This document shows positions 4,767-19,355 of a DNA stretch of 64,000 nucleotides, piece by piece. The DNA comes from Sulfitobacter sediminilitoris (lineage in GTDB: Bacteria; Pseudomonadota; Alphaproteobacteria; Rhodobacterales; Rhodobacteraceae): NCBI RefSeq assembly GCF_010667575.1, contig NZ_JAABNT010000001.1, positions 1 through 64,000 on the forward strand. The letters are read 5' to 3'. Below the pieces are notes generated by a model that worked only from the letters and a program-made list of their open reading frames with translations, was not told the DNA's origin and ran no database searches. The position numbers and the translations under genes were made by a program. Numbering within the stretch: position 1 is the stretch's first letter; every line of letters begins with the position of its first letter.

Positions 4767-5800
4767 CAGACGTCTTCAAAGACGCTCGGCAGCTGAGCAG
4801 GCGCCTTGTCGAGCCATCCAGGCACAGGCAGGCCCTTTTCACGCAGAAACTCGGGATTGAACAATTTGGACTGATACCGGGTGCCGAAATCGCACAGGAT
4901 CGTCACGATGGTGTGCCCCGGCCCAAGTTCACGTGCGAGACGCATCGCACCTGCCACGTTCACGCCAGAGGATGCACCAAGGCAAAGGCCCTCGTGTCCA
5001 AGCAGATCGAACACAATGGGCAGCGCTTCGGAATCGTGAATGTTGTAGCTGAAATCGGGCTTCAGCCCTTCAAGGTTCTTGGTGATGCGCACCTGCCCAA
5101 TGCCTTCGGCAATCGACCCGCCTTCAGAGGCCAGCTCTCCAGTGGTGTAGTAGCTGTGCAATGCAGCCCCGTCTGGATCCGCGAGCGCGATTTTGACACC
5201 CCTGGGCTGCAAGACCTGCGCGATGCCGGCCAAAGTACCGCCAGAGCCTACGGCGCAGCAAAACCCGTCCACTTTGCCGCCTGTCTGTTCCCAGATCTCG
5301 GGGCCAGTGGTTTCAACATGCGCTTGCCGGTTTGCAACGTTGTCAAACTGGTTGGCCCAGATCACACCTTCATTCGTGCTGCGCGCAAGTTCATTTGCCA
5401 GACGCTCGGAGTACCGGACGAAGTTATTGGGATTGCGATAGGGCGCGGCAGGCACCTGAACCAGCTCTGCCCCGGCCAGCCGCAACATGTCCTTCTTTTC
5501 CTGGCTTTGTGTCTCAGGGATGACGATCACGGTTTTGAAGCCCATGGACGCCCCTACCAGCGCCAGACCGATACCGGTGTTGCCTGCCGTCCCTTCAACA
5601 ATCGTACCGCCGGGTTTCAACGTGCCTTTGGCAATCGCATCCTTGATGATGAAAAGCGCCGCACGGTCCTTGACCGATTGGCCGGGGTTCATGAACTCGG
5701 CCTTGCCAAAGATGTCACAGCCGGTTGCCTCGGAAGGGCCGCGCAGCTTGATAAGTGGAGTATTGCCAATGGCTTCGGCCAGATCAGTTGCGACGTGCAT
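4766..5800 (-). CDS. cysK: Cysteine synthase (O-acetylserine sulfhydrylase)
   Basis: A PLP enzyme making cysteine from O-acetylserine and sulfide. The PLP lysine is K44 in NPGQSVKDRA. The phosphate- and substrate-binding loops EGTAGNTG and GSGGTLAG are clear. At 344 residues it is slightly longer than E. coli CysK, mainly at the C-terminus. It follows trgB after 25 bases. In Rhodobacter sphaeroides trgAB and cysK are adjacent and both affect tellurite resistance, so a link to thiol supply under oxyanion stress is likely. Confidence 0.92.
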   Translation of the reverse strand: MHVATDLAEAIGNTPLIKLRGPSEATGCDIFGKAEFMNPGQSVKDRAALFIIKDAIAKGTLKPGGTIVEGTAGNTGIGLALVGASMGFKTVIVIPETQSQEKKDMLRLAGAELVQVPAAPYRNPNNFVRYSERLANELARSTNEGVIWANQFDNVANRQAHVETTGPEIWEQTGGKVDGFCCAVGSGGTLAGIAQVLQPRGVKIALADPDGAALHSYYTTGELASEGGSIAEGIGQVRITKNLEGLKPDFSYNIHDSEALPIVFDLLGHEGLCLGASSGVNVAGAMRLARELGPGHTIVTILCDFGTRYQSKLFNPEFLREKGLPVPGWLDKAPAQLPSVFEDV

Positions 5801-5825
5801 ATGCGCCCCCCGGGACTGTGAAATG

Positions 5826-6959
5826 TTATTCTGTCCTTGGTGTATCTTTCACCCATTCGGACCTCAAGCGGTCCCTGTGCCGTGCGAGATAATATGCCGC
5901 CAGCGCCAAGGGGGCATTGGCGACGTCAAAACGATCGACCCGGTCCATCAATTCATCAAAAGACAACAAGTTTGACCGGATATTCTCATGCTCAGTCTCA
6001 AGGCCGCTGGTTCCCGTAATATCGTCAGGAAGGTCCGCAAGCCCAAGATATGTATAGTAAAACTCTGTTGATGTGCCGGGTGACGGATAAATCTCAGCGA
6101 TCTTTTCCAGCGCGCCAATTTCAAGATCTGCTTCCTCAAGCGCTTCGCGCCTGGCGGTCTCTTCCGGTGTCTCTCCGGGGTCGACCCGCCCGGCGATCGG
6201 CTCTAACTGCCAGAACGTCCTGTCGCCCCGGCCTATCGGACCAAGTCTGATCTGTTCAACCAAGAGCACCCGGTCCCGTCCCGGATCATACGGCAGCACC
6301 AATGCAGCGTCTGCGGCGACAAAGACCGCGCGGTCCAACACTTCCGACATGCTGCCGTCATACTTCTCGTGCTGCAACTTATAGTCATCGACCGCAAAGA
6401 AGTAGGAATAGGGTCGATGACGCGCGCGCACGTCGATCTTGCCATCAAACGTATCAGCGCCATGCAAAGACGACCTCGCGCGAATGCGCGAAGACGCACG
6501 CGCCCGGATCACCGGGAACATTTCTGCGACCTCATCGCGGCTGCGCTGGCCAAAGTATCCCATGACCTCTTCAGCCGCGATGACGCTCATTTCACCCCAG
6601 TCACTTTCCCATTTGGCCAGAGACCAGGGGCCATCCGCGGTCCAAAGACCGGCCTGCGGGACATATACCTCTGCAAGCTGTCCGTCATCCAGCGTCACGG
6701 GGCGCAAATCATAGGCAAAGCTGCCCTCGTAGAAATCAAGACGCGCCATGTCCACGTCCGACAGCCCGCCTACCAGAACACCCTCGGCCAAAGCGCCCGC
6801 CTGCTCTGAGATCATTGGAAAGGGTCCTTCCGCGACGGCAGAGACGGCATAGCCCGAAAGCTGCGCAGTTTTGATCTGCAGCTCGTCAGCCGGGCGCCCC
6901 ATAACTACCTCAAGCAAGGGGATATGGCGCAAGGTCCCGTAGAAAAACAGGTTTTTCAT
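5826..6959 (-). CDS. trgB: TrgB: gamma-glutamylcyclotransferase-like plus NUDIX fusion
   Basis: A two-domain protein of about 377 residues. The N-terminus has the AIG2/GGCT fold signature (FFYGTLRH). The C-terminal half is a NUDIX hydrolase with a near-canonical box, G-x5-E-x7-REALEE, in GRVDPGETPEETARREALEE. Rhodobacter TrgB, a tellurite resistance determinant, belongs to this family; the NUDIX part resembles ADP-ribose pyrophosphatases. The start was set at the ATG at 6959, four bases after the trgA stop, because the nine residues upstream overlap trgA and precede the conserved MKNLFFYG. The substrates of both domains are unknown. Confidence 0.85.
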   Translation of the reverse strand: MKNLFFYGTLRHIPLLEVVMGRPADELQIKTAQLSGYAVSAVAEGPFPMISEQAGALAEGVLVGGLSDVDMARLDFYEGSFAYDLRPVTLDDGQLAEVYVPQAGLWTADGPWSLAKWESDWGEMSVIAAEEVMGYFGQRSRDEVAEMFPVIRARASSRIRARSSLHGADTFDGKIDVRARHRPYSYFFAVDDYKLQHEKYDGSMSEVLDRAVFVAADAALVLPYDPGRDRVLLVEQIRLGPIGRGDRTFWQLEPIAGRVDPGETPEETARREALEEADLEIGALEKIAEIYPSPGTSTEFYYTYLGLADLPDDITGTSGLETEHENIRSNLLSFDELMDRVDRFDVANAPLALAAYYLARHRDRLRSEWVKDTPRTE

Positions 6960-6963
6960 GAGG

Positions 6964-7404
6964 CTAACGCCACCGCTTGCTTGCAAACTCCGTCAGCAAT
7001 CCGCTGATCACCGCCGAGATCAGCAAGGCAATGCCGATTTCAACCGTTGCGATGATCACCGCGAACTCTGCCCCGATCTTGAAAATCGCGACAATCGCCT
7101 CGAACGGGCCATCGTAGCGATTGCGCATCGCCAGTCGCATCATTTCGTTGATGGCCTGAACCCCGATGCCCCACAGCATGAGGACAAAAACCCCCGTCAG
7201 CCCGTTGTTGATGGCAGCAGTGGTGCCACGCCCTGCCCGCCGACCCATGACGATCCACCCGACAAGCAATCCCAGAACGATGTTAAGCGGCACGAAATAG
7301 CCGAAATCCGTGCTTTCCGGCATCAGCGGCATGACCATGAACGAAATAATACAAGCGACGATTGCCAGACAAATCGCAGCCATCAATCGTGCAGCGGTGG
7401 GCAT
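6964..7404 (-). CDS. trgA: TrgA-family membrane protein
   Basis: A 146-residue integral membrane protein with four predicted hydrophobic segments (roughly 8-27, 38-55, 68-85 and 108-135). It matches Rhodobacter TrgA in size, topology and position immediately upstream of trgB and cysK. Its biochemical function is not known; genetic work in R. sphaeroides tied trgAB to high-level tellurite resistance. It starts 25 bases after the cfa stop, so it probably belongs to the same transcript. Confidence 0.82.
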   Translation of the reverse strand: MPTAARLMAAICLAIVACIISFMVMPLMPESTDFGYFVPLNIVLGLLVGWIVMGRRAGRGTTAAINNGLTGVFVLMLWGIGVQAINEMMRLAMRNRYDGPFEAIVAIFKIGAEFAVIIATVEIGIALLISAVISGLLTEFASKRWR

Positions 7405-7429
7405 AGCTCTGCTCCCTCAGATCACCCGG

Positions 7430-8641
7430 TCAGCCGGGTCGCCTGATGGTAATCTGCGTCACGTCGCAATTTCCACTGTCAAATGTCGCAGCGCAGGAAG
7501 TGAGGTAAAAATTCCACATCCGCCGAAAGCGTTCGTCAAAACCAAGTGCGGTGATCTGATCCCACTTGTCATTGAACGTCTCGTGCCAACGCCGCAGCGT
7601 TATGTCATAACTTTTGCCAAACTCGATAGACTTGTCTACGACCAGTCCAGCGCGCTCCACCTGTTCACGCAAAACTTTAGGAGACGGGAGCATCCCCCCG
7701 GGGAATATATACTTTTGAATGAAATCAACACCGCGTTTATAGACATCCCAGCGTGCGTGATCCACCGTGATGATCTGCAAGGTTGCCGCACGACCGGGCT
7801 TCAGCCGATCACGGACAGTGTCGAAATATACGGGCCAGTATTTCTCGCCCACAGCCTCGAACATCTCGATACTGGCGATCCCGTCATAGTGACCCCGCTC
7901 ATCGCGGTAGTCTTGAAGTTTAAAATCAACTTGGCCTGAAAGTCCTGCTTTTTCAATGCGCTCTTTGGCATACTTAAACTGCTCTTCAGAAATGGTCAGA
8001 CCGGTAACCTTCAGCCCTCGTTCCTTGGCGGCGTATTCGGCAAAGCCGCCCCAACCGCATCCTATCTCAAGCACATGATCCCCGGGTTCCACGCCCATTT
8101 GATCCACCATGCTCTTGTACTTGGCGGTCTGCGCAGCCTCCAACGACTGCTGCGCGCCCTTTTCGAACAAGGCCGAGGAATAGGTCATCGTATCGTCCAG
8201 CCACAGGCCGTAGAAATCATTCCCCAAATCATAGTGATAGCTGATATTCTTTCGCGCCTGGCTTTTGGAATTCCGCTGCAGCCAGAAACGTAACTGTTCA
8301 AATCGGCGCACCAGTCCCATACCGGGAAAGCCGTCATAGACGGTCTCGTTCTTGTCGTGCACAAGATCCATGAACGCCTGCAAATCCGGCGTGGACCAAT
8401 CGCCGTCCAGATAGGCGTCACAGAACCCCAGATCGCCCTCTCGGATCAAACGGGCGAACAGGTCGTTGCTGTGAATATCGAGTTCAGCCACGTGCCCCGG
8501 CTTTGCGGCCTCCGCCCGAAAAACGCGGCCGTCGGGCAGCTTGAAATCGATGCGCCCGTGCTGCATCTGCTTTGCCGTATCGAACACGCGGGCAAAATAC
8601 CGAGGCAGGTTTTTCTGCCCCTCGGTGCTGGTCAAGATCAT
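7430..8641 (-). CDS. cfa: Cyclopropane-fatty-acyl-phospholipid synthase
   Basis: This enzyme transfers a methylene group from SAM to unsaturated acyl chains of membrane phospholipids. The SAM motif VLEIGCGWGG lies at about 190-199, and the conserved ISYHYDLGNDFY lies upstream at about 133-144. The C-terminal IFPGGMLPS and FVDK-type elements are present. I chose the ATG at 8641 (403 residues), preceded by GGGGAG, over an upstream TTG at 8695. It sits 57 bases after phr. In R. sphaeroides phrA and cfaA are both members of the sigma-E/ChrR singlet-oxygen regulon, and their adjacency here is suggestive. Confidence 0.92.
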   Translation of the reverse strand: MILTSTEGQKNLPRYFARVFDTAKQMQHGRIDFKLPDGRVFRAEAAKPGHVAELDIHSNDLFARLIREGDLGFCDAYLDGDWSTPDLQAFMDLVHDKNETVYDGFPGMGLVRRFEQLRFWLQRNSKSQARKNISYHYDLGNDFYGLWLDDTMTYSSALFEKGAQQSLEAAQTAKYKSMVDQMGVEPGDHVLEIGCGWGGFAEYAAKERGLKVTGLTISEEQFKYAKERIEKAGLSGQVDFKLQDYRDERGHYDGIASIEMFEAVGEKYWPVYFDTVRDRLKPGRAATLQIITVDHARWDVYKRGVDFIQKYIFPGGMLPSPKVLREQVERAGLVVDKSIEFGKSYDITLRRWHETFNDKWDQITALGFDERFRRMWNFYLTSCAATFDSGNCDVTQITIRRPG

Positions 8642-8698: not shown

Positions 8699-10120
8699 TT
8701 AAAAGTCTCGGTTTTCATAGGCTTCCAAGGCGCGGCTGCGTCCTTCGGAGGGTGATACAATCGGTGACGGATAAGGATCATCCGGTTTCATCCCCCAGTG
8801 GCGCGGGATCGCTTCAAAGAATTTCAGCGCGTCCTCATGCGGGCTGGATTTTCGTTCAGCAATCCAGCGGCCTACATAGTCGCGATTCTTATCGAATTTA
8901 TCCAGTTGGGTTTCCGGATTAAAAACCCGGAAATACGGTGTGGCATCGGGACCAGAGCCAGCAGACCATTGCCAGCCCATCGCGTTGCTGGCCGGATCCC
9001 AGTCAATCAGGCAATCCTCGAACCATTCCATCCCGATCCGCCAATGGGTCAGCAGGTGCTTGGTCAGATAACTGGCTACAATCATGCGACCGCGGTTGTG
9101 CATGCGGCCCGTGACGTACATTTCGCGCATTGCGGCATCGACGAACGGTATACCAGTGCGCCCCTTCTTCCACGCCCAGACTTCGGACTTCCGGGCGTCC
9201 TCGTTCCACGGAAAAGCTTCCCATTCCTCGCGCCAGTTCCGATCCAGAATGCGTGGCGTGTGGTGCATCAGGTGATAGGCAAACTCGCGCCAGACCAGTT
9301 CTTTCAAGAACGTCTCAGCCCCTGCCTTGCCCTCATCCAAGGCCCGCTGGCTTGCGTGCCAGCATTGGTGTGGACTGATCTCACCCAAGCTAAGGTTTTC
9401 GGACAGGTTCGACGTCCCGTCCATACCGGGGATGTCCCGGTTGTCCTTATAGCCCGCGACACCATGCGCCATGAAGCTGCCCAGACGGGCCTGTGCCGAT
9501 TGCTCACCCAGTTGCACGAACGGCCGCACAACATCGGCACCACGGTCCATCGCCGCCCCCATCTGCCAGCTGTCCAGGTCGTCGCTGTGAGGCCAGCTTT
9601 CTGGCGCAGGAATGCTTGATGGTGTCGCGCGCGGCGCATCCACGCCGACGTTCTTCACCGCATTCCAGAACGGCGTATAGACCTTGTAGTAGCCACCGGT
9701 CTTTGTCTCGACCGTCCAGGGCTCGAACATTAGATGCCCGCCAAAGGACCGTGCGTCGATATCTGCATCTTTGAGGGTCTCTTTGATCTTGCCGTCACGA
9801 TCAACACTATCCGGGTCGTAAAGCCGGGACCAAAAGACCGCCGCCGCCCCTGTTTCCGCGATAAGATCCTGCAAGACCTCCAATGCATCGCCCCGCCGCA
9901 GAACCAAACGACTGCCTTTGTCCTCAAGGCTCTCAGCCAGCGCGCCAATTCCCAGACCCAGACGCCATTTTGGCGCGGCTCCCAACCTCTCAACCAGTGG
10001 ATCGTTAATAAAGACCGGGATCACCGGCTGCCCGGCCTCGCAAGCCGCTGTCAGTGCCGCATGGTCCGACAGCCTCAGATCGCGGCGGAACCACATCAGA
10101 ACGGGTGCAGTATCACTCAT
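8699..10120 (-). CDS. phr: Deoxyribodipyrimidine photolyase
   Basis: A 473-residue flavoprotein that splits cyclobutane pyrimidine dimers using blue light. The N-terminal antenna domain starts with the family signature MWFRRDLRLSDH. The C-terminal FAD-binding region shows TGRMHNRGRM and the WQWSAGSG(P)DA...FRVFNP stretch typical of class I photolyases. The length is normal and the gene is intact. It is first in a minus-strand run leading into cfa and trgAB-cysK. A promoter should lie in 10121-10190; I could not identify a convincing sigma-factor motif there. Confidence 0.94.
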   Translation of the reverse strand: MSDTAPVLMWFRRDLRLSDHAALTAACEAGQPVIPVFINDPLVERLGAAPKWRLGLGIGALAESLEDKGSRLVLRRGDALEVLQDLIAETGAAAVFWSRLYDPDSVDRDGKIKETLKDADIDARSFGGHLMFEPWTVETKTGGYYKVYTPFWNAVKNVGVDAPRATPSSIPAPESWPHSDDLDSWQMGAAMDRGADVVRPFVQLGEQSAQARLGSFMAHGVAGYKDNRDIPGMDGTSNLSENLSLGEISPHQCWHASQRALDEGKAGAETFLKELVWREFAYHLMHHTPRILDRNWREEWEAFPWNEDARKSEVWAWKKGRTGIPFVDAAMREMYVTGRMHNRGRMIVASYLTKHLLTHWRIGMEWFEDCLIDWDPASNAMGWQWSAGSGPDATPYFRVFNPETQLDKFDKNRDYVGRWIAERKSSPHEDALKFFEAIPRHWGMKPDDPYPSPIVSPSEGRSRALEAYENRDF

Positions 10121-10186: not shown

Positions 10187-11410
10187 CTACAAAACTGCAT
10201 CCAAGGCATTTAGTAACTGGTCAATCTCGGCCTTCGAAGTGTAATGCGTGAAACTGAGCCGCAGAACACCCTTGTCCATGTCGACATCCATCGCTTTGAG
10301 CGCCCGGCCAGCATAGAAATCGCCGCCGCCTGCCATGATCCCATGCTTTGCAAGGTCTGCGGCAACCGCTTCGCCCTCACGGTTCAACGCCAGCGCCACA
10401 GTGGGTGCCCTGCCCGCAGCCTCGGCAGGACCAATGAGACGGACAGAGTTTCGGGATTTCACGGCATCCAGCAGCGGTTGCAGCAACGCTGTTTCATGTG
10501 CACGCATCAGATCATGCACTGACGCTCCTCGCTCTGCCGGGTCTGCGTCACCGCCAACATGGTGCGCATAGAACGCGTCAACGTAGTCAGCCATCCCGGC
10601 ACAGGCCGCCACCTGCGCATGATCGGGTCCGGCAGGTGTGAACCGTTTGTAAAGAGTGCCTGCGTTGAACACATGCCCCTGATTTGGCAGCAGTTCACCC
10701 AAGGCGCGCCGAATGACCATGAGCCCCTGATGCGGCCCAAAGGTCTTGTAGGACGAAAACAGGTAGATGTCCGGGCCAAGCGCGCCCACATCCGCAAAGC
10801 CATGAGGCGCGTAGGACACGCCATCGACACAGACGAAAGCACCCGCCGCATGGGCCAGCGCCGTGATTTCGACCACCGGGTTGATCTGCCCCACCACGTT
10901 TGAACAATGCGGAAAGCAGACCAGCCGTACCTTTTCATCCAGCAGGTTTTCCAGGTCGTCCGGGTTCAGGTGCCCTGTAACAGGATCAATGCACCATTCG
11001 CGTACCTCAATCTCAAGGTCCGCCAGCCGACGCCAAGGTCCAGTATTGGCCTCATGGTCCTGATTGGTGACCACGATCGCTTCACCCGGTTCCAGCATCT
11101 GACCAAAGGCTTGGGCCAGCACATATGTGTTCTGGGTCGTAGACGGACCAAAACTCAATTCATCGGGTGCGACGCCGAGGATTGCTGCCATGCGGTTGCG
11201 GGCCTCGTCCATTTCCTGCCCGCCAAGCATACTGGCCTCGTAGGGCGCATAGGGCTGTACCTTGCGCTGGGTATAGAAGCGGAAGAGCCGGTCAATCACC
11301 GGCTTGCACGTGTAGGAGCCACCGGCGTTCTCAAAGAACGCCTGTCCTTGCAACGATGGTTCGGAGAACGCGGGGAATTGGGCACGGACCCAGTCAATAT
11401 CTAGTGTCAT
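10187..11410 (-). CDS. Class V aminotransferase, cysteine desulfurase-like
   Basis: A PLP-dependent fold type I enzyme of 407 residues. The probable PLP lysine is K222 in LFSSYKTFGPH, and the aspartate in CVDGVSYAPHG is the usual ring-nitrogen contact. It lacks the extended cysteine loop that would mark it clearly as IscS or SufS, so cysteine desulfurase activity is not assured; other class V enzymes (lyases, isopenicillin N epimerase-like) are possible. The start was placed at the ATG at 11410 (MTLDIDWVRAQFP), where family similarity begins. It lies downstream of the BCCT gene but a terminator separates them. Confidence 0.8.
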   Translation of the reverse strand: MTLDIDWVRAQFPAFSEPSLQGQAFFENAGGSYTCKPVIDRLFRFYTQRKVQPYAPYEASMLGGQEMDEARNRMAAILGVAPDELSFGPSTTQNTYVLAQAFGQMLEPGEAIVVTNQDHEANTGPWRRLADLEIEVREWCIDPVTGHLNPDDLENLLDEKVRLVCFPHCSNVVGQINPVVEITALAHAAGAFVCVDGVSYAPHGFADVGALGPDIYLFSSYKTFGPHQGLMVIRRALGELLPNQGHVFNAGTLYKRFTPAGPDHAQVAACAGMADYVDAFYAHHVGGDADPAERGASVHDLMRAHETALLQPLLDAVKSRNSVRLIGPAEAAGRAPTVALALNREGEAVAADLAKHGIMAGGGDFYAGRALKAMDVDMDKGVLRLSFTHYTSKAEIDQLLNALDAVL

Positions 11411-11450
11411 GGCGGCAAGGTCACTTGATCCACCCGCCCCGTCAAGATGC

Positions 11451-11482
11451 AAAAGGCCCCTGCTGATCTCTCGGCAGGGGCC
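11451..11482 (-). terminator. Rho-independent terminator after BCCT gene
   Basis: A 9-bp stem GGCCCCTGC/GCAGGGGCC (11455-11463 and 11474-11482) with a 10-nt loop. On the minus strand it is followed by TTTT at 11454-11451. It lies 24 bases beyond the stop of the BCCT gene and isolates it from the class V aminotransferase. Confidence 0.88.
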
Positions 11483-11505: not shown

Positions 11506-13182
11506 CTATTCAGCAGGCTCCGCTGCCATATCTGCCTTGGTGGCCGGCACCCCGGCTTTGTGGCGCTTGCTGTCGCGCCAGATGGCCTTGAGGACGGACA
11601 CCCCCATGAGCGCCATTACAAGGCTGAAGGGCAACGCCCCGATCACCATGGCCGTCTGGATGGCCCCCAGGCCACCCGCCACGATCAGGCCGCCAACGAC
11701 GCACGCCAGTGCTGCCCCCCAGAACAGGATGTGCGGACGCGCCTTTGGCCCCTCGTCGCCTGCAGCATTGATCGTGTTGATGATCAGCACAGCTGAGTCT
11801 GCAGAGGTCACAAGATAGGTCAGCAGCAGAACCACAACAATCACGGACATGATCCACGCCATTGTCGGCTCAAGGATAACAGCCAGCATCGCGAAAAGCT
11901 GGTCAGATTGTCCTGCCCCGGCGATTGCACCATCGGCATTGCCGTTCAGCTCCAGATCAATGGCCGTGCCACCCACGATCGCGAACCAGACAAAGCACAT
12001 GAATGCCGGGATCACGATTGCGCCCAGCACATATTCACGCACCGTGCGCCCTTTGGAGATACGTGCGAGGAAGACACCAACGAAAGGTGCAAAAGCAATC
12101 CACCAGGCCCAGTAAAAGATGGTCCAGCCGCCCTGCCATCCAGCAAGTGCCGCTGCCTGTTCGGTTCCGTCATCGACCCAGACCGTCATGATGTTGCCGG
12201 GGATCGAGATCAGATAGTCCCAGATGCCAAGGAAAAGCGCCTGCAGACCAAAGAAGGTTGACCCGAAGATCAGGAAGAACGCCAGCAGGAAAAAGCTCAG
12301 GCCCATGTTGATGTTCGAGAGCCACTTGATGCCCTTGCCCACCCCGGACAAAGCGGAAAGCGTCGATGCCCCCATGATGACGAGCAGCGCAAATACGATT
12401 GCGGCGGTCGAAACCTTTTGCCCGCCATCCGCCGTCACGGTATAAAGCCAGTCACCAAAGCCAATCCGGCTGAGACCCGAGACAAACTGCTCAACCCCAA
12501 AACCAAGTGTCTGGCTGACACCCAAGACGGTTGCCACAACGGCCACCACATCGACTAAGTGGCCCAGAAAACCGGACAGCGAATGGCCGAAAAGCGGCAC
12601 CAGGGCAGACCTGATGGTCAGCGGCAAGTCACGCCGGTAGGAGAAATACGCAAGGCTCAATCCAACGATGGCATAGGCCGCCCAGGCCGCCAGCCCCCAA
12701 TGCGTGAACGACCAGACATAGGCTGCCCGGACGTTATCGGCGGTGCTGCCTGTTGTCAGTTCCTGAATCGTACTGGGGTTCTTTGCCCAATGGTACATAG
12801 GCTCGGCAGTGGCAAAGGTCAGCATCCCGATCCCGATCCCGGCCCCGAACATCATCGAGAACCAGGAAAAGTTCGAAAATTCAGGCATATCGTCATGATG
12901 CCCCAGTTTCAACCGGCCTGACGCAGGCAGGATCGCGAGAAACAGACAGACAGCCACAAAGAAGGCCATCACGTAGACATACCAGTAATTGAACGTCGCG
13001 AGGATAATACCGTTGATGCTGGACAGAACCGCGCCCGCCTGATCCGGAAACGCGACAGCCCAGACGATCAGGGCGCCCACCAGAAGCTTACCCGTAATCG
13101 TCACATTCTTTGCAAATCCCTTGTAGAACCCAGAATCCGCCGTCTCGATCGGCAGATGCATAATAGGTGGTTTGATTGACAT
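11506..13182 (-). CDS. BCCT-family betaine/DMSP-type transporter
   Basis: A 558-residue secondary carrier of the betaine/choline/carnitine family with about 12 transmembrane helices. The glycine-rich helix FGAGIGIGMLTFATAEPMYHW and the tryptophan-rich helix FYWAWWIAFAPFVGVFLARIS, which form the substrate site in BetP, are present. The start was set at the ATG at 13182 because AACAGGGA precedes it and the upstream 41 residues are basic and non-conserved. BCCT carriers import glycine betaine, choline or DMSP. Being just downstream of dmdA-acuI makes DMSP a reasonable substrate, but that is inferred from context only. Confidence 0.88.
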   Translation of the reverse strand: MSIKPPIMHLPIETADSGFYKGFAKNVTITGKLLVGALIVWAVAFPDQAGAVLSSINGIILATFNYWYVYVMAFFVAVCLFLAILPASGRLKLGHHDDMPEFSNFSWFSMMFGAGIGIGMLTFATAEPMYHWAKNPSTIQELTTGSTADNVRAAYVWSFTHWGLAAWAAYAIVGLSLAYFSYRRDLPLTIRSALVPLFGHSLSGFLGHLVDVVAVVATVLGVSQTLGFGVEQFVSGLSRIGFGDWLYTVTADGGQKVSTAAIVFALLVIMGASTLSALSGVGKGIKWLSNINMGLSFFLLAFFLIFGSTFFGLQALFLGIWDYLISIPGNIMTVWVDDGTEQAAALAGWQGGWTIFYWAWWIAFAPFVGVFLARISKGRTVREYVLGAIVIPAFMCFVWFAIVGGTAIDLELNGNADGAIAGAGQSDQLFAMLAVILEPTMAWIMSVIVVVLLLTYLVTSADSAVLIINTINAAGDEGPKARPHILFWGAALACVVGGLIVAGGLGAIQTAMVIGALPFSLVMALMGVSVLKAIWRDSKRHKAGVPATKADMAAEPAE

Positions 13183-13376
13183 TGAACTGTTCCCTGTTTT
13201 TCGCCGGCTTCTTTTGGCCGACGATGTCTCAATAGCACGTTTCGCTTGCAGAGCATACGGCAGCATCGGCATCCGATGTCCATCAGCGACCATCAGGTGC
13301 CGCAAATTGGCGATCTGAAACCTCGCGACCGGATGTCACCAAGCCAGCAAAAGCGCAGGGATTTGCCCTGAAAGTC

Positions 13377-13793
13377 CTACAAATGAGCGCGTATGGCTTC
13401 CGCGTTTCTCTTTATTTGATCCATGTCGCCCTGCTGACCGGGCGGGCGGATGCCCTCACCCTCGTGACGCGGGTGTATGTGGAAATGGAGGTGAAACACC
13501 TCCTGCCCGCCTGCCGCCTCATTGAACTGAAACAGCGTGATGCCATCCGCGTCAAAAGCCTTTTTCGCAGCATTTGCGACCTTGTTCACAGTTGTCATAC
13601 ACGCAGCCAATTGCTCTGGAGTGGCATCAAGCATGTTACGGCAGGGTGTCTTGGGAATAACCAGACAATGGCCATCTGTGCGTGGAAAGATGTCCATGAA
13701 ACACAATGTGTCATCGTCTTCGTAGACTGTGACATTGGGGATCTCGCCGCGCAGGATCTTCGCAAAGATATTATCGGTATCGTAGGCAGACAT
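13377..13793 (-). CDS. HIT-family (Hint-like) nucleotide-binding protein
   Basis: A 138-residue histidine-triad protein of the Hint branch, which hydrolyses nucleoside phosphoramidates or adenylates. The triad is HLHFHIH at 101-107. The start was set at the ATG at 13793, which has GAGGA seven bases upstream; an ATG two codons earlier is too close to that site. It lies 60 bases after the DUF2867-like gene and may be the last gene of the dmdA transcript. The physiological substrate is unknown, as for most bacterial Hint proteins. Confidence 0.9.
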   Translation of the reverse strand: MSAYDTDNIFAKILRGEIPNVTVYEDDDTLCFMDIFPRTDGHCLVIPKTPCRNMLDATPEQLAACMTTVNKVANAAKKAFDADGITLFQFNEAAGGQEVFHLHFHIHPRHEGEGIRPPGQQGDMDQIKRNAEAIRAHL

Positions 13794-13853
13794 ATTCATT
13801 TCCTCTTCGTCTCTTGCCGCCTTTCTACGCAGGCCCGAACCCAAGGTCGAGGG

Positions 13854-14345
13854 TCATCCCCAGCGCATCTTGCGTTCAGCCAGCCGCAGCAGTGCCTTGG
13901 AATAAAACCGGTGCAGCGGCAGGATGGCCCGCACCACGGCACCTAATTCAGCCCCCTCGCGCGGCACGACCGCAGACCCGAAAAGCAGTCGCGTGACTCC
14001 GCCCTCTTTGGGTGCCACGGCCAGATAGGACCGGGTCCGCCCTGACAGATCACACAGCAACAGTTGCGCCTCTGCGCGGCTCTCTACCTCCCATGCGGCG
14101 AAACGCTCGGCAGTACCGTTTGCAAGCGCCATAACATCGCTGTCGCTGATCCGGCGGCGCAGCCCAAGGGTCAGGACGGCACGTTCAAGCCGGAACAGCC
14201 ACGTCGTGTAGAAAGCTGCAATAAATTCATCAAGATTTGCCTGACCGGGCAGCATGACCTCAAAAAAATCGGTATAGACGCCCGCGCGGTCCACGTATGC
14301 GCTTAACAAAGCATCACGCGGGACCGCGCAGGCCCTTGCGATCAT
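13854..14345 (-). CDS. DUF2867-like protein of unknown function
   Basis: A 163-residue protein that starts inside the acuI stop (ATGA at 14345-14342), so it is translationally coupled to acuI. The C-terminal half (GRTRSYLAV, then VTRLLFGSAVV, then LHRFYSKALLRLAERKM) resembles DUF2867 members, which adopt a lipocalin/START-like shape. No catalytic motif or signal peptide is visible. The position suggests a role connected with DMSP or acryloyl-CoA metabolism, but nothing in the sequence shows one. The DUF assignment is from pattern memory and should be confirmed by profile search. Confidence 0.65.
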   Translation of the reverse strand: MIARACAVPRDALLSAYVDRAGVYTDFFEVMLPGQANLDEFIAAFYTTWLFRLERAVLTLGLRRRISDSDVMALANGTAERFAAWEVESRAEAQLLLCDLSGRTRSYLAVAPKEGGVTRLLFGSAVVPREGAELGAVVRAILPLHRFYSKALLRLAERKMRWG

Positions 14346-15325
14346 GCGTTCACATCGACGACAACCCGGCCCTTGACCTGACCTTTCAGGATGTCCGCCC
14401 CCAGCTTGGGCAGATCAGCCAGCATTGCGGGCTGAACCATCGCCTCAAGCTTGTCCATGGGAAGGTCCTTGGCGATCCGCTTCCATGCGCGCAGGCGGTT
14501 GTCATAGGGCTGCATCACGCTGTCGATGCCCAGCAGGTTCACACCGCGCAGCAGGAATGGAATGACCGTCGCAGGCAACGCCGCGCCACCGGCCAGACCA
14601 ACGGCAGCAACACTTGCCCCGTATTCCATCTGGCCAAGCACACGCGCCAGCATCGCACCACCTACCGCATCAACGCAGCCGCCCCATGTCTCACCTTCCA
14701 GTGGACGCTTGGTGGTTTCATTGATTTCCTCGCGTGCCACAATTTGCGACGCACCCAGGTCCTTCAGGTAGTCCGCCGTCTCGGGTCGGCCGGTCACGCC
14801 TGCAACCTTGTAGCCAAGGTTGGCCAGAATGGCGGTCGCAACGGAACCGACACCGCCCGCAGCACCGGTCACGAGGACCGGCCCTTGTTTGATCCCATGA
14901 TCTTCAAGCGCCATCACGGCCAGCATGGCCGTGAAGCCGGCAGTTCCCACCGCCATAGCCTGCCGCGTGTCCAGCCCGTCTGGCAAAGGCACCAGCCAAT
15001 CTGCCATGACCCGCGCTTTCTGAGAATACCCGCCCCAATGCGCCTCGCCCACGCGCCAGCCGGTCAGCACAACCTTGTCACCAGGCTTGTATCGATCATC
15101 ATCCGAAGTTTCGACGGTGCCTGCAAAATCAATGCCCGGGATATGCGGATAGTTGCGCACCAGGCCACCGCCCGGTCCGATGCACAGACCGTCCTTGTAG
15201 TTCACGGTGGAGTATTCAACAGCGACCGTCACCTCCGCCTGTGGCAGTTGATCTTCCGATATCTGTGTGACCGCTGCATGGGTCTTGCCCTCATCATCCT
15301 TGTTCACAACCAGTGCATTAAACAT
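14342..15325 (-). CDS. acuI: Acryloyl-CoA reductase (AcuI family)
   Basis: A 327-residue zinc-free MDR oxidoreductase reducing acryloyl-CoA to propionyl-CoA with NADPH. The nucleotide loop VLVTGAAGGVGSVA is at about 149-162, and the N-terminal NYKDGLCIGPGGG and NYPHIPGIDFAG blocks are those of the AcuI/YhdH group. The start was placed at 15325, since GGAG precedes it by six bases; another ATG lies four codons upstream. AcuI detoxifies acrylate-derived intermediates in DMSP catabolism, and its place right after dmdA matches other roseobacters. Confidence 0.9.
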   Translation of the reverse strand: MFNALVVNKDDEGKTHAAVTQISEDQLPQAEVTVAVEYSTVNYKDGLCIGPGGGLVRNYPHIPGIDFAGTVETSDDDRYKPGDKVVLTGWRVGEAHWGGYSQKARVMADWLVPLPDGLDTRQAMAVGTAGFTAMLAVMALEDHGIKQGPVLVTGAAGGVGSVATAILANLGYKVAGVTGRPETADYLKDLGASQIVAREEINETTKRPLEGETWGGCVDAVGGAMLARVLGQMEYGASVAAVGLAGGAALPATVIPFLLRGVNLLGIDSVMQPYDNRLRAWKRIAKDLPMDKLEAMVQPAMLADLPKLGADILKGQVKGRVVVDVNA

Positions 15326-15420
15326 CTTGCTCTCCATTCCCGAGACGACACGTCCCTTTTTTTCTACATACTACTGATGTCCAAAGGCAGCGCCTACGGA
15401 CGTCTCGCGGTTAAACGGGC

Positions 15421-16524
15421 TCACGCCCAGAAAGTCTCCCAGACAGAAGCGGCACGGACTTCGTCGGGCAAAACAACGTCAAGGTCGGTGCCTTCGTCCC
15501 AATGTGTCATGCGCACCATCCCGATCGCAACATTGGTTCCGAAATCCGGCGACCAGGCCGCGCTTGTCACACGCCCCACCTGCACGTCCCCCGCCATCAA
15601 AGGCCACGGTCTGTCGCAGGTGGGAACTTTGTCCCCGAAGATCTCTATTCCGCGGATCTGCCGCACCGGTCCTTCCTGGGCCACGCGCAACAACGCGTCA
15701 CGTCCCACGCAACCAATCGCGGTCTGTGTGTTACAGAACTTGCCCAAGCCGCATTCATGCGGGGTGTTGTTGTCGGTCATGTCGTTGCCATAGCTCAACA
15801 GGCCACCCTCGACCCTCTCGATCCCGTTAGGACAGCCGGCGCGCACGTCCAGATCACGACCCGCTTCCATCAAAGCGTTCCACAGCGGCATGCCCAGATC
15901 GCCACCTTCGACATAAATCTCGAACCCGCCCTGCCGGGAATAGCCCGAACGCGCCACAGCCAGAGACCGGCCCTGGAAATCCAGCATCTTGAACCTGAAG
16001 AACCGGATGTCGCGCACCGCGTCCCCAAAAACCCGTGCCATCAGATCATCTGCTTTTGGTCCCTGCACCGCCAACGGGGACACGTCGGGTTCGTCGACCA
16101 AAACATCAAGGCGGAACCCATAGGCCAACCCCTTGACCCAATACAGCAGATCGCTGTCGGCAATCGAAATCCACCAGCGGTCCTCGGCCAACTTCACGGC
16201 TACGGGATCGTTCAGCATGCCGCCGGTCTCATCGACGATCGGCACGTAGTAGCATTGTCCCGGCAGCATGGAGCGCAAATCGCGAGGCGTCAGCATTTGC
16301 ATCAGCCTGCTGGCATCGGGGCCGCGCAGCTCCACCTGCCGCTCGCAAGCGACATCCCAGACCTGAACGGCATTCTTCAGATGGTGGTAATCTTCCTCAA
16401 CGGATCGAAATACCGTTGGCAGCAGCATATGGTTGTACACGGTATAGGCCGTAACGCCTGCCGCCTCGACCCCATCTGAGAAAGGCGTGCGCCGCAATCG
16501 GCGGGAAGGAGAGATCAGCGCCAT
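15421..16524 (-). CDS. dmdA: Dimethylsulfoniopropionate demethylase
   Basis: A 367-residue tetrahydrofolate-dependent enzyme that moves a methyl group from DMSP to THF, giving methylmercaptopropionate. It has the GcvT/aminomethyltransferase fold, with the conserved blocks VWDVACERQVELRGPDA, PRDLRSMLPGQCYYVP and SGYSRQGGFEIYV. It differs from glycine-cleavage T protein in those blocks and matches DmdA. The start at 16524 overlaps the DinB gene stop (TGATG), excluding a 40-residue upstream extension. acuI follows after 95 bases. The gene is fourth in a run starting with DUF2182. Confidence 0.9.
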   Translation of the reverse strand: MALISPSRRLRRTPFSDGVEAAGVTAYTVYNHMLLPTVFRSVEEDYHHLKNAVQVWDVACERQVELRGPDASRLMQMLTPRDLRSMLPGQCYYVPIVDETGGMLNDPVAVKLAEDRWWISIADSDLLYWVKGLAYGFRLDVLVDEPDVSPLAVQGPKADDLMARVFGDAVRDIRFFRFKMLDFQGRSLAVARSGYSRQGGFEIYVEGGDLGMPLWNALMEAGRDLDVRAGCPNGIERVEGGLLSYGNDMTDNNTPHECGLGKFCNTQTAIGCVGRDALLRVAQEGPVRQIRGIEIFGDKVPTCDRPWPLMAGDVQVGRVTSAAWSPDFGTNVAIGMVRMTHWDEGTDLDVVLPDEVRAASVWETFWA

Positions 16525-17033
16525 CAGTTTTCCTCCGGCATGAAGACGATATCTGTTGTGGGGGCAGTGCGGCCCTGAGCTGTCAACATCGCATGCACCT
16601 GACCCCGGTGGTGGGTTTGGTGGTTGAACATATGGGCGATGCACATGCCCATCGGCTGGCGCATTTCCTGTCCGGTCGCAGTGTATGTCCAGACAAGTTC
16701 ACCGGTCAGATCAAGGTTGGACAGGGTTTCAGCCCAGATACGGATGCGTCCATCCATGGCAAAGCGCTGTGCCTCCCAGTTGCCAAGCGTCCCGGTGTAG
16801 TCCGCCCAATCCTCAAAATTCCTCTGCGGTGCCACGATATCGGAGCACCACCGGCTCATCCAAAGAGTGTCGCCCCACAGGATGTGATTCAGGGTCGCAA
16901 GGATCGAGCCGAAAAATGCCCCCTGATCCCCGCGTAAATCCGCTTCATCCATAACCTTAACAATGTCTATGATCTGTCTGTTTTGCCACGCATTATAGCG
17001 CGCCATAGTCAGAACATAGCCCTTGTCGATCAT
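16524..17033 (-). CDS. DinB-family protein (putative metal-dependent thiol transferase)
   Basis: A 169-residue four-helix DinB/YfiT-like protein. Metal-ligand histidines are seen in LATLNHILWGD (about 50-60) and MFNHQTHHRGQ (about 134-144). Characterised DinB-superfamily members are thiol S-transferases (bacillithiol, mycothiol) or maleylpyruvate isomerases; others have no known role. The start at 17033 forms ATGA with the stop of the DUF1326 gene and TGATG with dmdA downstream. Tight coupling to dmdA suggests a role in thiol or methyl-group handling, which is inference. Confidence 0.85.
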   Translation of the reverse strand: MIDKGYVLTMARYNAWQNRQIIDIVKVMDEADLRGDQGAFFGSILATLNHILWGDTLWMSRWCSDIVAPQRNFEDWADYTGTLGNWEAQRFAMDGRIRIWAETLSNLDLTGELVWTYTATGQEMRQPMGMCIAHMFNHQTHHRGQVHAMLTAQGRTAPTTDIVFMPEEN

Positions 17034-17737
17034 GCATTCGGCCCTTTCCAGTCGATCGGACAAATCTCAGCCGACATCCCGCCGAAATCCCAGACACGGC
17101 CATAATCACGCACTCGGCTTTTAAGGCCTTTGGCCGCGATGATGTCCGGACCCATCCAGTATTTGGAGTTGGAGACCATCACCGGATGCTCAGGCGATTT
17201 GCCTGCCAGCATCTCGATCTCACCTTGAATCTTGCGCCCGATCTGGATTGACCGCTTGTTGCCGTCGCGAATGATCTCAACAGGCGCGCGTTCGGCGCCA
17301 ATAATCTCGGAAACCAGCATGGTGAACAGGCCTGTTGTCCCGCCTGCAGCACCAGAGAATATCTGCAGAATACCATTATAGGCCTTGCCACTTGCGCGTT
17401 CATCCACGTAAGCCGCGACCTTCCAGTTGCCCTCGCCCATGCGGCCCGGGATATCGACCAGCAGGCCAACGTTCAGCCCACCAAGATCTTCGCCCTCGTA
17501 ATGGCCCTCGTCGATCGCGATGGCCATCCACGCATGGCAATGCCCTTCGGTCGGCGGGTGCGCGCCAAGGCTGACCACGCACGGACAGAAAACCGTGCAG
17601 GAGCAGTTGAGGAACAGCTCACCCTTGATCGCCCATTCGGTTGGTGTGCTCTGCCTGCGACCGGGGTTCGGCATGCGCTGATCAATGCGCTGCGAAATCG
17701 GCAGTCGGTCTGCGTCGGGTCTCTTCTTGGGTGGCAT
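17030..17737 (-). CDS. DUF1326 domain protein with cysteine cluster
   Basis: A 235-residue protein of unknown function. A cysteine-rich stretch near the N-terminus, C45, C47, C51, C53 and C67 (in LNCSCTVFCPCV and EGHCHAW), looks like a metal or redox site. The remainder is a DUF1326 beta-rich region (GLLVDIPGRMGEGNWK, then AYNGILQIFSGAAGG). It begins one base after the DUF2182 gene with GGAGGA as ribosome site. DUF1326 and DUF2182 genes often occur together, suggesting one functional unit, perhaps for metal delivery. The first 20-30 residues are basic and poorly conserved, so M22 could be the true start. Confidence 0.85.
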   Translation of the reverse strand: MPPKKRPDADRLPISQRIDQRMPNPGRRQSTPTEWAIKGELFLNCSCTVFCPCVVSLGAHPPTEGHCHAWMAIAIDEGHYEGEDLGGLNVGLLVDIPGRMGEGNWKVAAYVDERASGKAYNGILQIFSGAAGGTTGLFTMLVSEIIGAERAPVEIIRDGNKRSIQIGRKIQGEIEMLAGKSPEHPVMVSNSKYWMGPDIIAAKGLKSRVRDYGRVWDFGGMSAEICPIDWKGPNA

Positions 17738-17738
17738 C

Positions 17739-18527
17739 TTATCCTCCTGTCAGCAGGGGCCAGCCCGCCACGACGCAAGCGCCGAGGATCAAGGCAAAAC
17801 CCATTGGTTTTGTTATACGATGTCCGATTTGGGGAAGTTTTTCCAGCACCATGAAAAGCGTGGCCAGCCCCATCCAGGCCAAGTTCATCACACCGCCCGC
17901 GAACCCCAGCGCCATAAAGCCCCAACAACAGCCGACGCAAAAGGCCCCCAGACCAAGCCCCATCCGCAGGCCACCGGCAAAGCCTGCACGCCAATGGCCA
18001 AGGAAATACATCATCGGCGAATGGCACACACCGTGGCACAGCTCTTTGGTACGGGTGAACTGGAACAGGCCCACGGCCAGCAGTAGTCCGGCGGCAAACC
18101 AGCGCGACTTGGCAATGCCCAGCATGTCAATCACACCGCCAAAAAGCAGCGCCAGTTGCACGGAGGCAATCACAGCTGCAAAGATCAGCCAAACGATGAA
18201 ATAGCCCAGGATCACGCCCAGCCACCCTGCCCGCGTACCATTTGCGCTGACCATAAGGTCTTCGTAGCTGCGCAGCGTCGGCACCATCGTGGGCAGCATC
18301 ATCGCCGCCATCATGGCGCCCCACATGACGAAAAGTGGGCCGAAGGTCGCCATCGGCATGTACATATCCATGCGCGGGTCCATCCAGCGCATGCGCTCGC
18401 CGATCTGCCCGGGACGGCCCAGCAGATCGACGTCCATATTCATCGCCATGAAATACATCATCGCCCATGCCGCCAACACCAGACCAAAAAAGCCAAGCCA
18501 TAGCGATGTGCGCACGACAGCATGCAT
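17739..18527 (-). CDS. DUF2182 integral membrane protein
   Basis: A 262-residue polytopic membrane protein with about seven helices, rich in methionine (MMYFMAMNMDVD, MDPRMDMYMPMATFG, MMAAMMLPTM) and with a cysteine pair region (ELCHGVCHSPMMYF, CVGCCWGF). DUF2182 proteins are described as predicted metal-binding membrane proteins. The start was set at 18527, which has GGAGGA eight bases upstream. An ATG at 18575 lies inside the operator-like palindrome and is less likely. This is the promoter-proximal gene of the dmdA operon, facing the GntR regulator. Confidence 0.86.
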   Translation of the reverse strand: MHAVVRTSLWLGFFGLVLAAWAMMYFMAMNMDVDLLGRPGQIGERMRWMDPRMDMYMPMATFGPLFVMWGAMMAAMMLPTMVPTLRSYEDLMVSANGTRAGWLGVILGYFIVWLIFAAVIASVQLALLFGGVIDMLGIAKSRWFAAGLLLAVGLFQFTRTKELCHGVCHSPMMYFLGHWRAGFAGGLRMGLGLGAFCVGCCWGFMALGFAGGVMNLAWMGLATLFMVLEKLPQIGHRITKPMGFALILGACVVAGWPLLTGG

Positions 18528-18563
18528 GATCAGAGTCCTCCCCGACTCATTTCTTGCGTTTTT

Positions 18564-18609
18564 AATGTCAGACATTTAAAAACGTCGCAAACATTAAATG
18601 TCAGACATA
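18564..18609. promoter_or_regulatory. Twin GntR/FCD operator palindromes
   Basis: Two near-identical 13-bp palindromes, AATGTCAGACATT at 18564-18576 and AATGTCAGACATA at 18597-18609, lie exactly 33 bp apart, about three helical turns. They occupy the gap between the divergent DUF2182 (dmdA operon) and GntR genes. The second ends on the first base of the regulator's start codon. TGTCnGACA is the kind of site bound by FadR/FCD-type GntR dimers. The placement suggests that the regulator controls itself and the dmdA operon; this is inferred from sequence only. Confidence 0.82.
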
Positions 18610-19355
18610 TGAAAATTGATCCACAAAGCCCCGCCGATCTCTCGGCCCAGATTGCCAGCGCCATCCGCGATGCCATTATCGCCGGAGAGTTGATTGTCGA
18701 CCAAAGGCTTCCGTCCGAAGCGGAAATGGCAGAGCACTTCGATGTGTCCCGGCCAACGGTTCGAGAGGCGCTGAAACGTCTGGCGGCGCAGTCCCTGATC
18801 CGCACCCAGCGCGGCGCGACGGGCGGTGCCTTTGTCAACCGGATCAGATTTGAAGAAGCCTATTCGCAGCAAATCACCACCTCGACCCTGCTGCTCAGCA
18901 TGAACACGGTCAGCTTTGAGACCGCCTGCGAAGCCCGGTATGCGCTTGAGCGTGCGTGCGCCGCCCTCAGCGCCAAGCGCCGTACGGCTGATCACCTTGC
19001 AACCATGCGCGCCGAAATCCATCGCCAGTCCCAGCCGGGTCTAACCGACGAAGCCTTCTGCGCCTCTGACGTGGCCTTTCACCGCGCATTGGTCGATGGC
19101 GCAGGCAACCCTGTGATGTCCTACCAGCTTGCTGGTGCGGTCGAGGCGATGCAGCCGCTGATGAACATGATTACCTTTACAGCACGTGACCGTGCCCGGA
19201 TCGTGCAGATGCACGGTGATATCGCGGATGCCGTTGAACGGCGGGATGCCGCAGGCGTCGAAGCTGGTCTGACCGCCCTGGAACATGAGACCCAACAGCT
19301 TGCCCTGAACGCAATTGCCGCACGGGATGCGGCCAAGGAACAGGCCGCGCGGTAG
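18609..19355 (+). CDS. GntR/FadR-type regulator (FCD domain), probable DMSP-operon regulator
   Basis: A 248-residue regulator. An N-terminal winged helix (about 8-75) includes LPSEAEMAEHFDVSRPTVREALKRL, the classic GntR recognition region. It is followed by an all-helical FCD ligand domain with likely metal-binding residues (FHRAL in the central helix and HGDI near the end). It is divergent from the dmdA operon with two matching palindromes between. GntR genes also neighbour dmdA in other roseobacters. The likely ligand is a DMSP-pathway intermediate such as acrylate, but that is not visible in the sequence. The start at 18609 follows the operator directly, leaving little 5' leader. Confidence 0.9.
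   Translation: MKIDPQSPADLSAQIASAIRDAIIAGELIVDQRLPSEAEMAEHFDVSRPTVREALKRLAAQSLIRTQRGATGGAFVNRIRFEEAYSQQITTSTLLLSMNTVSFETACEARYALERACAALSAKRRTADHLATMRAEIHRQSQPGLTDEAFCASDVAFHRALVDGAGNPVMSYQLAGAVEAMQPLMNMITFTARDRARIVQMHGDIADAVERRDAAGVEAGLTALEHETQQLALNAIAARDAAKEQAAR

Follow-up and report, generated by a model that had tools for sequence, protein, structure and literature searches.

The dmdA gene, commonly used as a marker of sulfur turnover in the sea, encodes the dimethylsulfoniopropionate (DMSP) demethylase. Here, we analyze the dmdA operon in a stretch of 64,000 nt from Sulfitobacter sediminilitoris (assembly GCF_010667575.1, contig NZ_JAABNT010000001.1, positions 1 to 64,000), which we refer to as the window and to which positions refer unless stated otherwise. 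In this operon, dmdA is preceded by the genes for a DUF2182 protein and a DUF1326 protein (hereafter M and F, for gene and protein alike). The gene order is a divergent gntR, then M, F, dinB, dmdA, acuI, an open reading frame (ORF) for a 163-aa protein and a HIT gene, with a BCCT gene further downstream; all operon genes are on the minus strand and gntR alone is on the plus strand. The central features are:

18609..19355, plus strand: gntR, divergent transcription regulator of the GntR/FCD type (PF00392, 62.9 bits; PF07729, 70.5 bits; both over the cut-off)
18596..18610, no strand: operator copy 1, AAATGTCAGACATAT, overlapping the gntR start (family-wide TGTCNGACA pattern upstream of M)
18563..18577, no strand: operator copy 2, TAATGTCAGACATTT, upstream of M (family-wide TGTCNGACA pattern)
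17739..18527, minus strand: M, polytopic membrane protein of the DUF2182/PpoB2 family, rich in cysteine and methionine (PF09948, 196.2 bits, cut-off 28.7)
17030..17737, minus strand: F, DUF1326 protein with a five-cysteine cluster and an acetoacetate-decarboxylase-like barrel (PF07040, 175.3 bits, cut-off 25)
16524..17033, minus strand: DinB-family protein, predicted to be metal-dependent (PF05163, 81.2 bits, cut-off 23)
15421..16524, minus strand: dmdA, DMSP demethylase (equivalog NF009133, 685.1 bits, cut-off 410)
14342..15337, minus strand: acuI, acrylyl-CoA reductase family (subfamily TIGR02823, 446.6 bits, cut-off 297)

AcuI scores just under the cut-off of the stricter AcuI equivalog NF051456 (422.6 bits, cut-off 440). 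The two operator copies lie at the start of gntR and upstream of M, respectively. Because the longer ORF starts traverse this operator region, the start of gntR is probably at 18609 and that of M at its second ATG (18527, behind GGGGAGGA) rather than at 18575, where the longest ORF begins. The DNA shows the TAA stop of M separated by 1 bp from the start of F, ATGA shared by F and dinB with the dinB start on the F stop, TGATG shared by dinB and dmdA with the dmdA start on the dinB stop, and ATGA shared by acuI and the 163-aa ORF. Thus, the genes named in a first-pass annotation of this DNA are all present, and the overlapping or near-overlapping starts on which it based a module with dmdA are borne out by the DNA junctions.

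Linkage of the DUF2182-DUF1326 pair to dmdA

To place the window operon in context, we used 295 genomes of the same family, nearly all of different genera (genomes, contigs and loci of the survey carry handles in G, C and L, the window's own genome being G000). dmdA scores over the curated cut-off in 125 of these genomes. DUF1326, with at least 150 matches listed in the family search, is present in at least 151 of the 295, and DUF1326 of any type is present in 106 of the 125 genomes with dmdA versus 45 of the 170 others. Of the 134 dmdA matches outside the window's genome, 120 were fetched and, together with the window, gave 121 loci. F is found no more than 6 kb from dmdA in 97 of these, a count that takes in two loci with a second dmdA in front, M in 96, and the two genes are adjacent in 94. 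From coordinates alone, 90 pairs of F and dmdA lie within 10 kb of each other, and F is upstream and on the same strand in all 90. The next labelled gene after dmdA is acuI in 93 of the 121 loci, and a GntR gene on the opposite strand lies within 6 kb in 83. Other members vary. An acyl-CoA ligase of a single cluster, whose tested members are PRK08162-type, is encoded in 14 of the 121 loci, and in only 52 is DinB the labelled gene closest upstream of dmdA, so that DinB does not hold as the fixed part of the module that it was initially taken to be.

The linkage extends beyond this sample. Of 584 relatives of F in named genomes, the best 80 come from Sulfitobacter, Roseobacter, Ruegeria, Tateyamaria, Roseovarius and other genera, and 71 of these 80 have dmdA beside F. 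Marinovum and Antarctobacter carry plasmid-borne copies of the module, and among 29 dmdA-containing genomes sampled from other families of the class, five have DUF1326, which in two lies directly before dmdA with M directly before F. In other words, M and F lead the operon in most sampled genera, and their arrangement with dmdA is how the DMSP-demethylation operon of the Roseobacter group is usually organized. Linkage confined to a single lineage, set beforehand as an argument for a chance neighborhood, is ruled out by the 97 of 121 loci, the plasmid copies and the 2 of 29 genomes from other families, and the proposed tie of the module to the DMSP operon stands on the same 97 loci.

A conserved chromosomal neighborhood without functional coupling could nevertheless give rise to such a pattern, and a photolyase-type gene (48 of 121 loci) and a cysteine-desulfurase-like gene (54 of 121) do also recur near dmdA. 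However, such a neighborhood does not account for the overlapping starts, the uniform position and strand of F in the 90 coordinate pairs, the plasmid-borne copies, the linkage in two other families or the operator shared across loci (see below), and we regard chance synteny as extremely improbable. In a tree carrying the labels of 95 F-bearing loci, in which many branches are weak, there are 17 label changes versus 23.6 in shuffles.

The putative GntR operator and its candidate regulon

Using a fixed stretch upstream of F, we found the palindrome TGTCNGACA upstream of M in 61 of the 70 M-F loci with a divergent gntR versus 1 of the 36 without. In a narrower stretch around M, the operator is present in 55 of 85 M-F loci with dmdA and in 3 of 21 M-F loci without linked dmdA. 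The density of TGTCNGACA is 3.74 per kb in 73 gntR-M intergenic stretches, 61 of which have at least one site, compared with 0.016 per kb in the remainder of these loci. All operator claims are made from TGTCNGACA only; the non-palindromic TGTCAGACA was set aside.

To look beyond the operon, a strict pattern, WWWTGTCAGACAWWW, was searched in 80 genomes with the module and gave 94 sites in 64 of them, with 10 sites for a reversed control pattern. By coordinates, 67 of the 94 sites are at the gntR-M-F operon and 27 elsewhere, and nine of the latter are just upstream of pathway genes. Five precede ligases (G249, G193, G036, G049, G294) that are 76-79% identical to the PRK08162-type ones. In two genera (G043, G073), the operator precedes a DmdB-like ligase that falls just short of the cut-off of 822 of the DmdB equivalog NF005426 (800.2 and 779.0 bits); the PRK08162-type ligases tested score about 300 to this model and are a group separate from DmdB. 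In G277 and G072, the operator lies about 90-110 bp before a gene for SBP56, the periplasmic methanethiol-oxidase family. Ten further genomes gave 24 strict sites versus 4 for the control, 10 of them at the operon and 14 elsewhere, and four of these 14 precede dmdD (G187), a PRK08162-type ligase (G141, G123) and SBP56 (G070). The G187 dmdD product scores 407 bits to the structure 4izb, which we take to be DmdD of R. pomeroyi. In total, the operator precedes a PRK08162-type ligase in seven genera, a DmdB-like ligase in two, SBP56 in three and dmdD in one. In addition, gntR and SBP56 run together, with SBP56 after gntR, in nine of the best 80 named loci. Because the operator recurs at ligase, SBP56 and dmdD genes, GntR probably governs DMSP demethylation. 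The M-F operon is very likely a member of a DMSP regulon.

At one off-operon position, a double operator lies 17 bp before a gene for a short-chain acyl-CoA dehydrogenase (L227, G278 C1:1424696-1424725). The best family matches of this 395-aa protein, all below cut-off, are the acryloyl-CoA reductase AcrC and 3-sulfinopropanoyl-CoA desulfinase. It is possibly an extra member of the regulon; as DmdC it was rejected, because no match names DmdC, and it was not counted among the pathway genes.

Predicted properties of the DUF2182, DUF1326 and DinB proteins

Both families occur in bacteria and archaea. Across 74 sequences with identities as low as 19%, F never varies at the cysteines C45, C47, C51, C53 and C67, which are unchanged even between the operon type and remote F types (19-25% identity). 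No solved structure of DUF1326 was found by sequence. The structure model of F (predicted local distance difference test, pLDDT, 91.7) has as its nearest solved folds acetoacetate decarboxylases and MppR-type relatives (Z 10.2-10.8, root-mean-square deviation 3.2-7.7 over 152-169 residues; Foldseek E 8e-05). Acetoacetate decarboxylases use a catalytic Schiff-base lysine, and no lysine is found among the invariant or nearly invariant columns of the 74-sequence alignment. Thus, this lysine is not kept, and F as an acetoacetate decarboxylase enzyme was rejected despite the similar fold. In M, the cysteines C180, C184, C213, C216 and C217 and the methionines M84, M88, M92, M93, M221 and M230 (numbering of the long ORF) are invariant in 63 sequences. 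The M model (pLDDT 92.2) is nearly all helix and had no convincing match among structures in the PDB and viral structures, which is not proof of a new fold.

The fold of F lends itself to an alternative explanation in which M and F are an enzyme and transport pair for a small thiol or acyl metabolite, with the F barrel binding a C3-C4 acid and M exporting or importing it. Since F has no conserved lysine, and since the invariant cysteines and methionines suggest a soft metal instead, we consider this explanation very unlikely.

DinB-type metal-dependent thiol transferases have a histidine metal triad, and in the DinB protein H60, H148 and H152 are kept in 98% of 65 sequences. Its match to solved structures by sequence is weak (E 0.045). 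A search of PHROGs with these proteins gave no match.

Pfam gives PF09948 (DUF2182) the title PpoB2, "copper chaperone", presumably after the protein involved in copper transfer to tyrosinase, as described in the consulted sections of PMC2855505. Based on this name and on the invariant cysteines and methionines, M and F are a putative Cu(I)-handling pair. The earlier guess of a metal-handling DUF2182/DUF1326 pair, itself made from sequence, fits these residues and this name.

A model for the operon and its alternatives

Starting from the anatomy and conservation of the operon, the co-occurrence of operator and gntR, the recurrence of the operator at pathway genes, the invariant residues and the predicted folds, we infer repression and its ligand, copper binding, the direction of transport and the benefit to the cell as follows. 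In this model, the locus is a GntR-controlled DMSP operon with a Cu(I)-handling M-F pair; the copper mechanism is our best guess, and one that could go either way. A GntR-FCD repressor would bind TGTCNGACA at its own and the operon promoters and, in several genera, also at the promoters of CoA-ligase, dmdD and SBP56 genes, and would be released once breakdown products of DMSP appear. M would move or present Cu(I) across the inner membrane through its methionine and cysteine ligands, while F would hold Cu(I) in its five-cysteine site in the cytoplasm. The pair may thereby keep copper enzymes loaded, i.e. SBP56 where present and perhaps oxidases, and prevent copper-thiolate damage during the formation of methanethiol and the acryloyl electrophile. 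DinB, where present, might add a metal-dependent thiol-transfer step. Methanethiol oxidase requires copper, according to the available part of PMC5739008.

Several observations weigh against this model. First, the operator is not universal. It is missing from 9 of the 70 gntR-bearing M-F loci, 16 of the 80 module genomes have no strict site, and in G251, G187 and G035 the operon itself has no site. Moreover, no DMSP gene is evident at 18 of the 27 and 10 of the 14 off-operon sites. This includes the single off-operon site in the window's own genome, which lies on C89 near GNAT and SnoaL-like genes and is not counted as a regulon member. For ten of the 18 sites, the neighbors were looked up and included rluB, lysA, GAF, EamA and class-V aminotransferase genes or had no family; the remaining off-operon sites are probably due to chance. 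Second, DUF1326 is absent from 19 of the 125 genomes with dmdA within the family, and is therefore not essential, as well as from 24 of the 29 sampled in other families. Third, in the neighborhoods as annotated, F-M pairs elsewhere have no steady copper neighbor; a single pair, in Caballeronia, has a tyrosinase gene at a distance of about 2.3 kb. Fourth, dmdA-acuI of R. pomeroyi is induced by DMSP and acrylate and not by methylmercaptopropionate (MMPA), as reported in the consulted part of PMC3338564, a response that fits acuI as well as dmdA.

A fifth point comes from 40 fetched DUF1326 loci without dmdA next to them. In 16 of these, F, with or without DinB, is followed by acuI in the absence of a full dmdA, and M is labelled in front in 14; at L159 and L165, where the selection of ORFs in this survey missed F, F or M-F is present. 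Two of the 16 loci are in genomes with dmdA elsewhere. Roseobacter sp. GAI101 (L292) is one of five further cases of F-(DinB)-acuI without dmdA among the 80 named loci. Other unlinked loci are F-M pairs in reversed gene order beside unrelated genes. In plasmid records of Sinorhizobium, Streptomyces, Nocardioides, Paraburkholderia and Natrinema, whose gene tables are incomplete, no DMSP gene is annotated within 4-6 kb of the M-F pairs, and some F genes outside the group stand without an annotated M. Thus, although wide, the linkage to dmdA is not exclusive, and the module is not bound to dmdA alone. Given the pairs with unrelated neighbors, M-F looks like a general pair that was incorporated into the DMSP operon. 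Taken as a whole, the interpretation in the first-pass annotation is partly supported.

Two side observations concern the same set of loci. At L162 (G242 C18), M-F-acuI is preceded at short distance by a DmdA-like fragment of 135 aa, possibly a relic of dmdA loss; this genome has no dmdA scoring over the cut-off. The window's own genome has a second, distant F-M pair in reversed order with unrelated neighbors (L155, G000 C78:190545-198696).

The loci with acuI and without dmdA are the basis for an alternative explanation in which M, F and DinB belong with acuI as a defense unit against the acrylate or acryloyl-CoA electrophile, and dmdA is a passenger of the same regulon. The part of DinB would then be to join electrophiles of the acrylate type to a thiol, and that of M-F to repair or buffer the damage to thiols and metals. 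The acrylate response of R. pomeroyi acuI and dmdA agrees with this explanation, as do L141, L180 and L187, where a crotonyl-CoA carboxylase/reductase-type gene takes the place of acuI (550 bits to TIGR01751 for the L180 copy, to which those of L187 and L141 are about 80% identical). By contrast, ten loci with F and dmdA, nine of them with M, have no acuI labelled nearby, DinB directly precedes dmdA in fewer than half of the dmdA loci, the operator is found again at genes of demethylation (ligases, dmdD, SBP56), and it is rare at M where dmdA is not linked (the 3 of 21 loci above). We therefore consider this explanation rather unlikely.

A last set of observations weighing against our model concerns SBP56 as a client of the copper pair. 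Among genomes with dmdA, a strong SBP56 match, with weak matches in five genomes left aside, is present in 65 of 106 with F versus 10 of 19 without (p=0.61), and the lower-scoring SBP56 group alone in 46 of 106 versus 5 of 19 (p=0.21); these Fisher p-values, like those for the operator tests, ignore relatedness. PF16867 DMSP lyases (E 1e-10 or better) similarly show no difference given dmdA (52 of 106 versus 10 of 19). Accordingly, a role as chaperone of SBP56 only was rejected, as it has no co-occurrence support over the 295 genomes. From the lack of association between F and SBP56 and the genomes with dmdA that do without DUF1326, it follows that M-F is at most helpful and not essential, and that its client is not SBP56 alone.

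These data also bear on the explanation in which M-F is dedicated to SBP56 as a copper chaperone pair, in the way that PpoB2 serves tyrosinase. It has in its favor that SBP56 is part of the gntR unit in the nine named loci and in the Marinovum cluster described below, that SBP56 stands behind the operator in G277, G072 and G070, and that the SBP56 gene of the window's genome is not flanked by genes for SCO1 or MauG, unlike the mtoX clusters in the consulted part of PMC5739008. However, in addition to the absence of co-occurrence given dmdA, a strong SBP56 match is absent from 41 of the 106 genomes with dmdA and DUF1326, and DUF1326 is missing from 10 genomes that have both dmdA and SBP56. Overall, a dedicated SBP56 chaperone pair is unlikely.

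Family-wide, full-length SBP56 proteins fall into two score groups of about 650-710 and 540-600 bits, at times both in one genome, and it is usually the lower-scoring group that is joined to the gntR-dmdA cluster. SBP56 of G070 passes PF05694 and scores 116 bits to the MtoX equivalog NF052453, below the cut-off of 650. SBP56 of the window's genome, 90% identical to that of G070, scores 581 bits to PF05694 and falls in the lower-scoring group. Its gene is followed by one for a 223-aa multi-span protein without a Pfam match (L231, G000 C14:18120-30120; 5317-5985 and 5989-7641, minus strand), which is conserved next to this SBP56 type in loci of Marinovum, Tateyamaria and Ruegeria (about 59-66% identity); on the other flank is a DNA-glycosylase-type gene.

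Neighboring genes in the window

Downstream of acuI, the window has three further features:

13854..14345, minus strand: 163-aa protein, no family assigned (ATGA overlap with acuI)
13377..13799, minus strand: HIT-domain protein, occasional member (PF01230; 11 of 161 loci)
11506..13305 (longest ORF, start unrefined), minus strand: BCCT-family transporter, possible DMSP/betaine importer (PF02028, 485 bits)

The 163-aa protein has no match in Pfam, NCBIfam or PHROG and is present in two of the 161 loci searched, the window being one of them, and is thus lineage-specific. Because of their rarity, neither this ORF nor the HIT gene was retained as a functional member. BCCT transporter genes are present in 41 of the 161 loci, and one of the same cluster lies near 31 of the 121 dmdA loci. 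Further along, 10187-11452 encodes the cysteine-desulfurase-like and 8699-10120 the photolyase-type protein mentioned above; their recurrence near dmdA (54 and 48 of 121 loci) is probably neighborhood conservation, and they were likewise not counted as functional members.

Relation to known systems and implications

The operon resembles dmdA-acuI of R. pomeroyi DSS-3, in which dmdA is followed by acuI and the two are co-regulated and induced by DMSP and acrylate. The consulted sections of PMC3338564, to which our comparison is limited, describe only SPO1913-SPO1914, with the promoter on a 350-bp fragment ending within dmdA, and make no mention there of a DUF2182, DUF1326, DinB or GntR gene. 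PpoB2 of Marinomonas mediterranea, the protein whose name Pfam uses for DUF2182, is also a membrane protein that shares an operon with the enzyme it serves; unlike M, as far as the available part of PMC2855505 describes, it serves a tyrosinase and is encoded in a two-gene operon without DUF1326. The window operon has no tyrosinase gene, and SBP56 genes lie near the operon only in other genomes. In the mtoX-SCO1/SenC-mauG cluster, a copper chaperone gene also lies beside the gene for a copper enzyme of the DMSP pathway and is induced with the pathway, but the chaperone is SCO1 and the regulator IclR (PMC5739008, in part), while SBP56 of the window's genome belongs to the lower-scoring group. 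The closest parallel is plasmid pMaD9 of Marinovum algicola (CP010864), with the order gntR-DUF2182-DUF1326-ligase-dmdA-acuI-SBP56; it differs from the window in being a plasmid and in having a CoA-ligase gene between F and dmdA where the window has dinB. In this record, the GntR gene is called only a transcriptional regulator and no mechanism is given. Its depositors labelled the DUF2182 and DUF1326 genes 'involved in DMSP breakdown'. Thus, the linkage of M-F to DMSP has itself been noticed before and is not wholly new. As far as our literature searches reach, the regulon, the operator, the extent of the linkage and the invariant cysteine chemistry are new. To our knowledge, no experiment has addressed M or F of the DMSP operon. 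In the open-access literature searched, no paper was found by the domain names DUF1326 or DUF2182, COG5486/COG5588 led only to PMC2855505, and no link between dmdA and GntR is described in the consulted parts of PMC4334477 and PMC4770636.

We tentatively suggest, as a possibility short of an expectation, that the pathway has an unrecognized accessory step in which a Cu(I) pair, made together with DmdA under a pathway-wide GntR, aids methanethiol oxidation and tolerance of copper-thiolates. If so, copper supply would help to set the division of DMSP sulfur between retention and loss as volatile methanethiol or dimethyl sulfide, and copper availability would be a candidate switch between sulfur retention and volatile sulfur release. 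If most genera with dmdA co-express M-F and share the regulator, then the regulator, the operator and the inducer of DMSP demethylation become directly testable, and the uncharacterized families DUF1326 and DUF2182 would gain a tractable physiological context. Because dmdA, in most sampled Roseobacter-type genera that have it, stands behind two unstudied genes with the look of copper handling and is probably controlled by a regulator with its target also at later genes of the pathway, an overlooked step may help to decide the fate of ocean sulfur.

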